Of a stretch of DNA of 64,000 nt, positions 33,433 to 34,820 are shown one piece after another. A model generated the notes under the pieces. It searched no databases, was not told the origin of the DNA, and worked only from the letters and a program-made list of their open reading frames with translations. The position numbers were made by a program, and so were the translations under genes. This DNA comes from Microvirga arsenatis (GTDB taxonomy: Bacteria; Pseudomonadota; Alphaproteobacteria; Rhizobiales; Beijerinckiaceae), in assembly GCF_009910705.1 (NCBI RefSeq), contig NZ_JAAAXJ010000002.1, forward strand, positions 1 to 64,000, given 5' to 3'. Every line of letters begins with the position of its first letter. Position 1 is the stretch's first letter.

Positions 33433-33508
33433 GGCTATCAAAATTCTCTGGGAACGAAGGTGGGGACAGAACGCCGCAGCGCCCCGCCCTTCCGCTGGGC
33501 TCTTCTCA

Positions 33509-33520
33509 CCCCATATGGGG
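33509..33520. promoter_or_regulatory. 12-bp perfect palindrome upstream of the micro-ORF
   Basis: CCCCATATGGGG is a perfect 12-bp palindrome 17 nt before the extended Shine-Dalgarno and 77 nt from the prfC start. It could be an operator or part of a promoter (CATATG as a -10-like element), or a 5' hairpin in the small transcript. No family of site is recognised. Confidence 0.3.
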
Positions 33521-33536
33521 CTTTCCCGTCAACAGC

Positions 33537-33553
33537 GAAAGGAGGTGATCCAG
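33537..33553 (+). promoter_or_regulatory. Extreme Shine-Dalgarno: 17-nt exact complement of the 16S rRNA 3' end
   Basis: GAAAGGAGGTGATCCAG is the exact reverse complement of the conserved 16S 3' tail CTGGATCACCTCCTTTC. Ordinary ribosome sites pair over 4-7 nt. The GGAGG core ends 7 nt before a GTG codon, the optimal distance, and the last G of the match is the first base of that GTG. Confidence 0.8.
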
Positions 33554-33627
33554 TGTCTCATTGTCATACCCTACGTTCCCCGGTTGCCGCGACCTGGATC
33601 TTGGCCTCTGCCGAGATTTGTGCGTAA
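33553..33627 (+). CDS. 24-codon micro-ORF behind the extreme Shine-Dalgarno
   Basis: A GTG-initiated reading frame of 24 codons ending TAA. The peptide is (M)SHCHTLRSPVAATWILAS followed by AEICA. It is too short for a folded domain and has no membrane segment; the two cysteines and two histidines near the ends could be coincidental. Support comes from the perfectly placed 17-nt ribosome site and from a strong intrinsic terminator 46 nt after the stop, giving a self-contained transcription unit with no downstream gene on that strand. It may be a real micro-protein, or the open frame may matter only for loading ribosomes on a regulatory RNA. I do not recognise it. Confidence 0.5.
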   Translation: MSHCHTLRSPVAATWILASAEICA

Positions 33628-33672
33628 CGCACCTTTAAGGGCGGCTCTTCGGGGCCGTGGAACCGACAATGG

Positions 33673-33704
33673 AAAGGCCGCCCCTCGGGGCGGCCTTTCT
33701 TGTT
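33673..33704 (+). terminator. Strong intrinsic terminator after the micro-ORF
   Basis: AAAGGCCGCCC (33673-33683) and GGGCGGCCTTT (33688-33698) form an 11-bp stem with a CTCG loop, followed by CTTGTTT. A GGGCGGC at 33638-33644 could pair with the terminator's left arm (GCCGCCC) instead, so an alternative fold exists. It ends at the stop codon of the convergent deacylase gene. Confidence 0.85.
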
Positions 33705-34820
33705 TCAGGCGCTGAGCAGCTTCCCCGTGCGCTTGGACTGAGTGCCGGCGACCTTGGCAATGCGCATGCCCCTCGTCACGAAGCGCCCGGCGATGCGGGC
33801 GAACATCACGCCGTCGCAGGGGGCCTTGGCCTCGGTGGTGAAGCCCGTCATGGGATCGACGATGTCGGCGATCACGTCACCGGCTTTCACGCGCGCTCCC
33901 ACCTCGGCCTTGAAGACCAGGATCCCTGAGGCCGGCGCCGGAACAGGCTCGGAGGCAGCCAGCGGCGTTGCCCGGCAGAGGGCCTCCGGCACCCGCGGCG
34001 TCTCGCCCGCAATGGCGCCGCGCAGGATCAGGAAACTGACGATGGCCGCCGCATCGGCCCGGGCCGTCTCGTGGCTCACGTCCCGCTCGCCCCGGAACTC
34101 CAGGGTGGTCGAGTGGCAGCCGAAGGGGATCGGGTGATCCGGGAAGCGGTCGGCGAGTTCCGCCCAAGGGCGACTGCAGGCCTCGTCGAAAGGCTCGTCG
34201 CCCGACACGTCGGCGAGCAGGTAGGCATGGGCGCCGATGAGGGCGGAGAGCGGGGCGAATGCCTCCTCGGAGCGGGTGTGGGTGTAGAGGTGCACCACCG
34301 CCTCCGCGTCGCAATGCATGTCGAGGACGATGTCCGCCTCCAGGGCGAGGCCGAGCAGGGCCTTCTTCATCGTCTCGGCCGGGTTGGACGGCTCCCACAC
34401 TTCGAGTTCCGCCCGCAAGGCCTCGCGGACGAGGCGGACATTCGCTTCCCCGTTGCCGGTCAACTTGCCGTCGATCCGCTCGGCCACCTTCGGCACGAAG
34501 TCGGGATAGCCCCGGTTGAAGTTGATCCCATCAGACAGGTTGAAGCGGCCGATATGGTCGCCCAGCACCCTTTGGCCAAGGCCGATGGGATTGGCGGAGG
34601 GCACGAGCACGATCTCGCCCCTGATCCGCCCCTCCGCCTCGAGGGCCGTGAGGCGCTCGCGCAGGTGATGGGCGGCAATCATGCCCGGGATCTCGTCGGC
34701 GTGGAGCGAGGCCTGGACATAGATGCGGGGGCGGGCGCCCTCCCGGCCGAAGCGCTGCACCGTCAGGGAGAGGTCGGCGCCGGGTGCGAGGGGCGAAAGC
34801 GCAATCTGTTCTGTTCTCAT
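33705..34820 (-). CDS. Succinylglutamate desuccinylase/aspartoacylase-family (AstE-like) zinc hydrolase
   Basis: A 371-residue M14-type metallohydrolase. Zinc ligands are His and Glu of SLHADEIPGM near residue 40 and His of DMHCDAEAVVH near 165. A phosphate/Arg-site FNRGYPDF lies near 97. The C-terminal 80 residues (VFKAEVGARVKAGDVIADI) resemble a biotinyl/lipoyl-like half-motif found in this subgroup. Family members remove acyl groups from amino acids or peptides. The ATG at 34820, following a GTG in frame, is the probable start. It is 45 nt downstream of glk at the end of the trehalose/glucose gene series, but a sugar role is not apparent and the substrate is unknown. Confidence 0.83.
   Translation of the reverse strand: MRTEQIALSPLAPGADLSLTVQRFGREGARPRIYVQASLHADEIPGMIAAHHLRERLTALEAEGRIRGEIVLVPSANPIGLGQRVLGDHIGRFNLSDGINFNRGYPDFVPKVAERIDGKLTGNGEANVRLVREALRAELEVWEPSNPAETMKKALLGLALEADIVLDMHCDAEAVVHLYTHTRSEEAFAPLSALIGAHAYLLADVSGDEPFDEACSRPWAELADRFPDHPIPFGCHSTTLEFRGERDVSHETARADAAAIVSFLILRGAIAGETPRVPEALCRATPLAASEPVPAPASGILVFKAEVGARVKAGDVIADIVDPMTGFTTEAKAPCDGVMFARIAGRFVTRGMRIAKVAGTQSKRTGKLLSA

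Follow-up and report, generated by a model that had tools for sequence, protein, structure and literature searches.

The window (the whole 64,000-nt stretch of DNA analyzed here) encodes on its forward strand a stand-alone RNA of ~170 nt, for which we consider it about an even chance (a probability of roughly 0.5), judged from comparative sequence analysis, that it is a translation-operated switch run by the ribosome. The RNA carries both halves of the Shine-Dalgarno (SD):anti-SD interaction, namely a near-complete complement of the 16S rRNA tail and, within its reading frame, a segment that resembles this tail. In the 50 families of Alphaproteobacteria sampled, the frame has been kept open even though its amino acids drift, which separates selection for translation from selection on a peptide. 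The biology of this RNA is richer than both its RF01867 catalogue entry and the first-pass annotation of the window suggest.

Locus layout and assignment to RF01867

A cmscan search identified the RNA as RF01867 (CC2171), a family typed as sRNA, with the full model (positions 1–159) covered (Table 1). The consensus 5′ segment GAAAGGAGGUGAUCCAGUGUCUCAUUGUCAU and the CAUUGUC/GACAAUG closing helix are both present in the window RNA (alignment and fold), and we regard the assignment as practically certain. The first-pass annotation, made from the sequence alone, had not recognized a described family; with a score above the family's gathering score, that statement no longer holds. The elements it named (a palindrome, a 17-mer, a GTG, a 24-codon frame and a terminator) were all found where it had placed them. 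The final G of GAAAGGAGGTGATCCAG is at the same time the G that opens the GTG start codon, and a position profile of 99 relatives favors A at −7, −6 and −3. Elsewhere in the window, on the same strand, a TPP riboswitch (RF00059, 13823–13929, 78.1 bits) and a chrB-a RNA (RF03078, 2624–2702, 77.2 bits) are present.

Table 1. Features of the RNA locus and its neighbors, in window coordinates.
Feature	Position	Strand	Remark
Palindrome CCCCATATGGGG	33509–33520	+	Probable overlap with the −10 region (CATATG)
A/C-rich 5′ leader, CAACAGC, upstream of the SD	33530–33536	+	Profile of 99 relatives; RF01867 match starts here
Extended SD GAAAGGAGGTGATCCAG	33537–33553	+	Complementary without mismatch to 17 nt at the 16S 3′ end
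Micro-frame MSHCHTLRSPVAATWILASAEICA, 24 codons, GTG 33553–33555, TAA 33625–33627	33553–33627	+	Conserved in relatives
Helix P1, 5′ strand CAUUGUC, codons 3–5; second block 33571–33575	33559–33565	+	MFE fold, own-versus-swapped tests
Anti-SD look-alike in frame, CUGGAUC + CCUCU	33594–33609	+	Own-versus-swapped and shuffle tests, compensatory examples
Helix P1, 3′ strand GACAAUG, abuts terminator; second block 33656–33660 (CGUGG)	33665–33671	+	MFE fold, own-versus-swapped tests
Intrinsic terminator, 12-bp stem 33672–33683/33688–33699, then T-rich tract	33672–33705	+	
RF01867 (CC2171) covariance-model match	33530–33697	+	82.3 bits, E 2.4e-15, gathering score 75
Release factor 3 gene (named from translation)	start near 33441	−	
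AstE-like gene (named from translation)	end 33705	−	Convergent to the RNA

When the RF01867 model was run on 385 evenly sampled genomes of the class, 85 had a match at E ≤ 1e-3, 14 of them above the cut-off. The hits numbered 93, comprising 83 real and 10 false ones as judged by reading of the loci. The false hits (L002, L214, L216, L219, L220, L222, L224, L227, L229 and L231) correspond to terminator hairpins or protein-like sequence; all ten fall below the family cut-off, as do true diverged members, and none of the seven loci L095, L193, L195, L206, L208, L237 and L251 reaches it. The pattern GAAAGGAGGTGRTCNNRTGTCT was found at no more than one mismatch in 83 of the 385 genomes and its reversed form in none; since the covariance model alone detected the RNA in 12 more, it is present in at least 95 of the 385, four of these with the long-frame form described below. 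In a phylum-wide sample, the motif AAAGGAGGTGRTCNNDTGTC occurred in 29 of 51 alphaproteobacterial genomes versus 0 of 149 others, an exact match being absent from the remaining 22 of the 51. Carriers among the matches listed belong to Microvirga, Bosea, Methylobacterium, Sphingomonas, Novosphingobium, Brevundimonas and Roseiarcus. RF01867 merits re-examination for its frame, and a widening of its model.

The motif search yielded 222 loci, of which 207 remained without copies identical over 200 nt and 206 without one that lacked a stop in reach. As most loci were gathered by the SD motif, 150 of them via patterns with a purine-TG start, the invariance of SD and start among the motif loci is partly a selection artefact; the unselected set is formed by the covariance-model hits. 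One genome (G012), the sole one of the 385 surveyed with two motif matches, holds two diverged copies (L022 and L210, with frames of 24 and 18 codons). A locus from a record labeled as a Candidatus Kuenenia MAG (L084) is an alphaproteobacterial copy whose frame is that of L016, and is probably a mislabeled L016 record.

The extended SD and its match to the 16S tail

The 17-nt exact complement to the 16S rRNA 3′ end reported by the first-pass annotation was confirmed. GAAAGGAGGTGATCCAG pairs perfectly with the 16S tail CUGGAUCACCUCCUUUC, at a calculated −31.9 kcal/mol versus −12.6 kcal/mol for an ordinary strong SD used as yardstick, and the SD:16S energy ranged from −23.7 to −31.9 kcal/mol in the seven members for which it was computed. 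The SD pairing is far stronger than initiation requires. In the 5.05-Mb assembly, where ~6e-4 exact 17-mers are expected by chance (two strands, equal base frequencies), the only other exact copy is the antisense strand of the 16S 3′ end itself. Four more sites in the assembly match the 17-mer at two mismatches: two have a near-identical, protein-like context (EEVIQWIYDTYG), in which GTG occurs only as part of the frame, and the remaining two lack a start codon at the right spacing.

We also considered whether such SDs are generally abundant in the window, and rejected this, as both other exact AGGAGGTGATC sites sit in coding frames (EEVI and KEVI). A candidate second genomic copy at C28 (28.9 bits) was taken as a false match, because its GGGAGGAGGTGATCCAG stretch recurs at C23 in a near-identical, protein-like context.

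In 84 close comparisons the 14-nt core of the SD showed 4 changes versus 349 differences in the 20 nt upstream, the latter figure being counted without gaps and inflated by indels, and most of the loci having been collected by the core itself. With this qualification the long SD, which in the family complements about 13–17 nt of the 16S tail, is a conserved feature.

Conservation of the reading frame

The long SD is followed by ATG, GTG or TTG in all 83 real RF01867 hits. Those with a standard SD (79) start with ATG in 39 cases, GTG in 34 and TTG in 6, and the four with a variant SD with ATG or TTG (two each); the two bases preceding the start codon vary among members. When each of 50 families was represented by one locus, the start was ATG in 25, GTG in 24 and TTG in one. 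A frame of 18–30 codons was open in 47 of these 50 families, versus 3 and 5 in the +1 and +2 frames and a mean of 7.7 (maximum 16) in 300 sets of shuffled sequences, and in 44 families the frame measured 20–27 codons.

Insertions and deletions follow the same frame. Gaps inside it were found in 7 of the 84 close comparisons, with a net length of 0, 3 or 6 nt in all seven, and some in-frame gaps of 1 and 2 nt sum to 3 or cancel out; 3′ of the stop there were 76 gaps, of which only 7 were multiples of 3. The stop codon was kept at 76 of 79 scored positions, although it was spelled differently nine times, and was lost or gained at the other 3. The start, frame and stop of the GTG-initiated 24-codon frame, noted before as a possible micro-gene, evolve like those of a translated frame, and on these comparisons its actual translation is very probable. 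A purely non-coding sRNA would show no selected reading frame; here start, frame, length and stop are all conserved.

Frame length departs from this range in two groups of loci. Frames of 14 codons with the SD kept were observed at L095 (Microvirga pudoricolor), L195, L226, L260 and L261, of which L195, L260 and L261 are short-frame loci of a genus of family f2 with large genomes (7–8 Mb). At four loci of families f53 and f106 (L042, L045, L191 and L241), the same SD and start open secreted-looking frames of 55–58 codons. The frame of L045, which retains the start-proximal helix P1, is identical to a hypothetical protein of Skermanella pratensis (the 56-aa long-frame form). In f53 and f106 the micro-frame may have turned into, or arisen from, a protein gene.

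Evolution of the encoded peptide

For the codon analysis 217 loci were entered, leaving out the 55–58-codon frames; 111 of them had a close relative and were linked by the 84 closest-relative comparisons. Among codons with a single change, 76 synonymous and 165 non-synonymous changes were counted versus 71.3 and 162.2 expected from codon-blind change (the expectation further includes 7.5 nonsense changes), which corresponds to a transition-corrected omega of 0.95, with codons 1–5 and 73 multiply changed codons omitted. Rates of change were equal at the three codon positions (0.081, 0.089 and 0.079) in a subset of 71 comparisons analyzed earlier, for which codons 1–5 were omitted as well. The same subset gave 70 synonymous changes versus 50.8 expected and an omega of ~0.63 when no transition correction was made; in view of this uncorrected value from a smaller set, there may be weak constraint on the peptide.

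Clear purifying selection on the amino acids, as in a protein-coding micro-gene, was not found. A frame that is kept while its codons change in a nearly codon-blind manner implies that selection keeps the frame open and acts on the peptide weakly, if at all, and the peptide is probably not the selected product. As a conserved product, the micro-protein considered by the first-pass annotation is not supported, in view of this near-neutral rate.

The peptides do show recurring patterns, MSHCHxxRSxxAxTWIxAS and MSSD...EQPS. These coincide with RNA pairing elements described below, CUGGAUC...CCUCC encoding TWIxAS and GGAGCARCCU encoding EQPS, and in L204 and L211 the EQPS-encoding element GGAGCARCCU is read in a different frame.

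One alternative is a functional micro-protein, i.e., a very efficiently initiated mRNA whose structure serves stability and whose peptide of 18–30 residues acts in the cell. Such a gene would account for the conserved start, frame, length and stop, for the recurring peptide patterns and for an omega of ~0.63 in the uncorrected set, and the long-frame form is annotated as a protein in S. pratensis. The nearly codon-blind changes (omega 0.95, equal rates at the three codon positions) and the coincidence of the peptide motifs with pairing elements of the RNA argue against it, and we consider this explanation unlikely.

Pairings and folds of the RNA

The fold of the window RNA is predicted to be far more stable than that of shuffled sequences (z −5.4). 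In the minimum free energy (MFE) fold, at −83.0 kcal/mol, helix P1 is formed and the SD is free; an SD-closed alternative is predicted at −71.7 kcal/mol without pseudoknot, 11 kcal/mol worse, so that the alternative fold proposed in the first-pass annotation does exist as a predicted structure. Predicted accessibility of the SD averaged 0.46 over 82 loci and exceeded 0.5 in 38. This middling value and the free SD of the MFE fold count against the switch proposed below.

P1 joins codons 2–9 to a stretch 3′ of the stop (in the window, right before the terminator) and starts directly behind the start codon. It was evaluated by comparing the pairing of each RNA's own two strands with that of strands swapped between families, using 50 representatives hand-picked before the test, one per family; f106, whose frame has 55–56 codons, was excluded, and for f53 the 20-codon form was taken. 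Own strands paired at −18.7 kcal/mol and swapped ones at −15.1 kcal/mol (z −8.6; 0 of 20,000 permutations reached the observed value), and the control with the upstream region gave no effect (z −0.3). With the terminator-adjacent stretch as partner, the values were −14.1 versus −8.9 kcal/mol (0 of 2,000 permutations; 84 loci, a usable terminator being present in 84 of 92).

The second pairing joins the SD tail and start to a later element inside the frame. Own pairs reached −8.30 versus −7.30 kcal/mol for swapped ones (50 families; z −4.9; 0 of 20,000 permutations), and controls with the stretch after the stop and with the leader were null (z −0.5 and +1.7). Compared with shuffles, the SD pairing was better by more than one standard deviation in 56 of 87 loci, within one standard deviation in 31 and worse by that amount in none, the after-stop control averaging +0.2. 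A conserved pairing of SD and start with an anti-SD segment, as in SD-sequestering switches, is present, though not in every locus. Restricted to the group with CAT as third codon, the swap test was weak (n = 32, z −2.3, p 0.012). Among 202 loci, only 6 contain within the frame a 6-nt sequence exactly complementary to the start-proximal TCNNRT. The use of one locus per family reduces, but does not remove, relatedness in the permutation tests; the 50-family, CAT-group and shuffle tests and the analysis of site position leave out the 55–58-codon frames, and the terminator, CAT-group and shuffle tests mix RF01867 and motif hits.

The in-frame element resembles the 16S anti-SD; in the group of the window it reads CUGGAUC with CCUCC or CCUCU behind it, and in other groups GGAGCARCCUYY. 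In the window CUGGAUC complements GAUCCAG, and CCUCU complements the GGAGG part of the SD with one wobble. Compensatory changes were seen as GATCCTG opposite CAGGATC (L030, L059), GATCCCG opposite CGGGATC (L026, L121) and GATCCGAT opposite ATCGGATC (L208); an exact compensating partner is absent in other loci, e.g., L025 and L101. The best SD-complementary site falls within the frame in 81 of 104 loci, whereas in the other 23 it ends beyond the stop; over all 104, it ends a median of 13 nt ahead of the last base of the stop codon. The six loci of family f24 (L198, L206, L207, L213, L262 and L263) have frames of exactly 18 codons, and in several of them a strong look-alike of the 16S tail is located 3′ of the stop instead (GATCCCACCTCC in L207 and L262); the anti-SD element appears to have been placed there independently.

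The first-pass annotation had put forward covariation and codon-level conservation as checks: two pairings covary, and the rate of peptide change is near-neutral. It had also named a failure of SD length or peptide to be conserved as the mark of a chance or rRNA-derived sequence; here the outcome is split, with conservation of SD length, start and frame but hardly any of the peptide.

P1 and the pairing of SD and look-alike cross, and must therefore be mutually exclusive or form a pseudoknot. A structured RNA with such an SD could also be a trap or decoy, on which 30S subunits are parked by the 13–17-bp SD while P1 blocks their progress, so that initiation is buffered or silenced. The 30S subunit places its mRNA channel just 3′ of the start codon, which is where P1 begins, and the exceptional SD:16S energy suits a trap as well. 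Selection on frame, length and stop, however, would be required only where ribosomes translate all the way to the stop, and we regard a trap as improbable.

Transcription and genomic context

Of 99 diverged relatives, 76 have their best −10-like hexamer beginning 28–25 nt upstream of the SD, and T is favored 50–48 nt upstream of it; promoter scores were 9.9 versus 8.3 for shuffles (99 members). A scan of the window itself preferred a different, weak pair. The palindrome was rejected as a part of the RNA: it sits at the −10-like hexamer of the relatives, and the aligned stretches in other families differ. The first-pass annotation had listed it as a component of the micro-gene, a role we do not retain, since other families do not share it and it probably overlaps the −10 region.

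In Mesorhizobium huakuii, the available text of a transcriptome survey lists an RF01867 member, MH_s33, with an extent of 215 nt that was detected by RNA-seq, and the sole candidate it gives as lacking RNA-seq support is a different one (PMC5596092). Such detection, together with the Rfam type sRNA and the free-standing unit with its own terminator, fits an ordinary trans-acting base-pairing sRNA, in which the SD-like or anti-SD-like strand would be the seed for target mRNAs; most Caulobacter ncRNAs, too, derive from untranslated intergenic regions, as Schrader (2014) states. This explanation does not account for a frame that is conserved and start codons that vary yet remain valid, and it appears of low probability.

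Neighboring genes were compared as frames of at least 90 codons within ~2 kb, in 48 families with assigned loci. Release factor 3, to which the first-pass annotation had drawn attention as the divergent neighbor, is found upstream in 14 loci and AstE downstream in 13, all of Microvirga type (window counted once), so that release factor 3 is not a meaningful neighbor beyond these 14 loci. Of 211 neighbor clusters, 9 span two or more families, one of these spans 3 of the 48 and none spans more; the largest comprise 16 Bosea-type, 14 Microvirga-type and 13 Methylobacterium-type loci. The conserved same-strand downstream gene that a leader-peptide attenuator controls was not found, the next gene in the window being convergent. 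A leader or attenuator of a neighboring gene, of which SD sequestration and a leader-peptide-like frame are generally typical, was rejected as very improbable, being largely contradicted by the convergent orientation of the next gene, the terminator of the RNA itself and the absence of any neighbor cluster from more than 3 of 48 families. The idea of a chance match or rRNA-derived remnant, prompted by identity to the antisense of the 16S end, can be dismissed, as this identity ends at 17 nt and a class-wide family with covarying pairings and a maintained frame contradicts it.

A proposed ribosome-operated switch

The reading that we prefer is that of an RNA switched by its own translation. When no 30S subunit is bound, the anti-SD look-alike would hold the RNA's own SD, and the 16S tail of an incoming 30S would compete with the look-alike for the SD strand; on this proposal, the length of the SD complement would reflect that competition. 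Once loaded, the ribosome would melt both P1 and the look-alike and would end at a stop codon a few nt past the look-alike, so that the SD would stay open for the next ribosome, whereas in the absence of ribosomes the RNA could close again. The balance between closed and translated states would then be set by free 30S subunits, or initiation capacity, with the peptide as a by-product. Possible outputs are the lifetime of the RNA, the accessibility of one of its strands to other RNAs or the buffering of 30S subunits.

The conserved features are compatible with an RNA that holds or senses 30S subunits, as the first-pass annotation had suggested. More tentatively, and with sequence comparison as its basis, the RNA might be a class-wide sensor of free 30S that acts in trans when opened or closed and whose frame is selected for traversal; we hold this extension to be possible but doubtful. 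If 30S-sensing is true, the RNA would be a dedicated gauge of initiation capacity.

Comparison with known systems

The name CC2171 reportedly goes back to a 2008 paper by Landt. Literature searches on CC2171 turned up two papers, namely the survey of M. huakuii and the one on Rfam 15, those on the SD string only a paper on 16S processing and those on the MSHCH peptide string unrelated words; the search listings showed no paper on the frame of this RNA or its 16S complementarity. Nor did they show anything on its paired elements, its look-alike of the anti-SD, the near-neutral change of its peptide or the breadth of its distribution. The main text of Schrader (2014) reports that two formerly predicted ncRNAs of Caulobacter are translated and does not name them; CC2171 may be one of the two, in which case the Caulobacter member may have been reported as translated before.

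By its covariance-model match over the full length, the window RNA belongs to the same family as the Caulobacter sRNA CC2171. The RF01867 catalogue describes an sRNA gene, whereas the RNA described here combines a conserved frame with an anti-SD look-alike, and some of its relatives lie outside the reach of the model.

SgrS is a dual-function sRNA with a small frame, and SgrS/SgrT, Spot 42 and rnTrpL/peTrpL are, like the window RNA, small free transcripts that are both structured and translated. Of these, rnTrpL is covered in PMC10117765, and Spot 42 appears in the title of a reference cited there. The peptides of dual-function sRNAs have a function of their own, whereas the amino acids of the window frame change in a nearly codon-blind manner.

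In leader-peptide attenuation the act of translating remodels the fold of the RNA. The proposed switch would share with leader-peptide attenuators and translational attenuation that translation, rather than the peptide, does the remodeling; attenuators control a gene in cis, whereas the window RNA has its own terminator and no conserved downstream gene.

Extended SD motifs have been described in Staphylococcus aureus, where, according to the available text, the SD–aSD pairing reaches towards the start codon (PMC13009471). These concern initiation in general, whereas the extended SD of the window is a feature of one alphaproteobacterial RNA family.

Riboswitch expression platforms and the E. 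coli alpha operon leader provide examples of SD-sequestering switches and of pseudoknots that entrap the 30S subunit. In SD-sequestering switches, as in the window RNA, an anti-SD segment pairs with the SD and pairings cross at the start codon; the window RNA differs from them in that the controlled 24-codon ORF itself contains the anti-SD.
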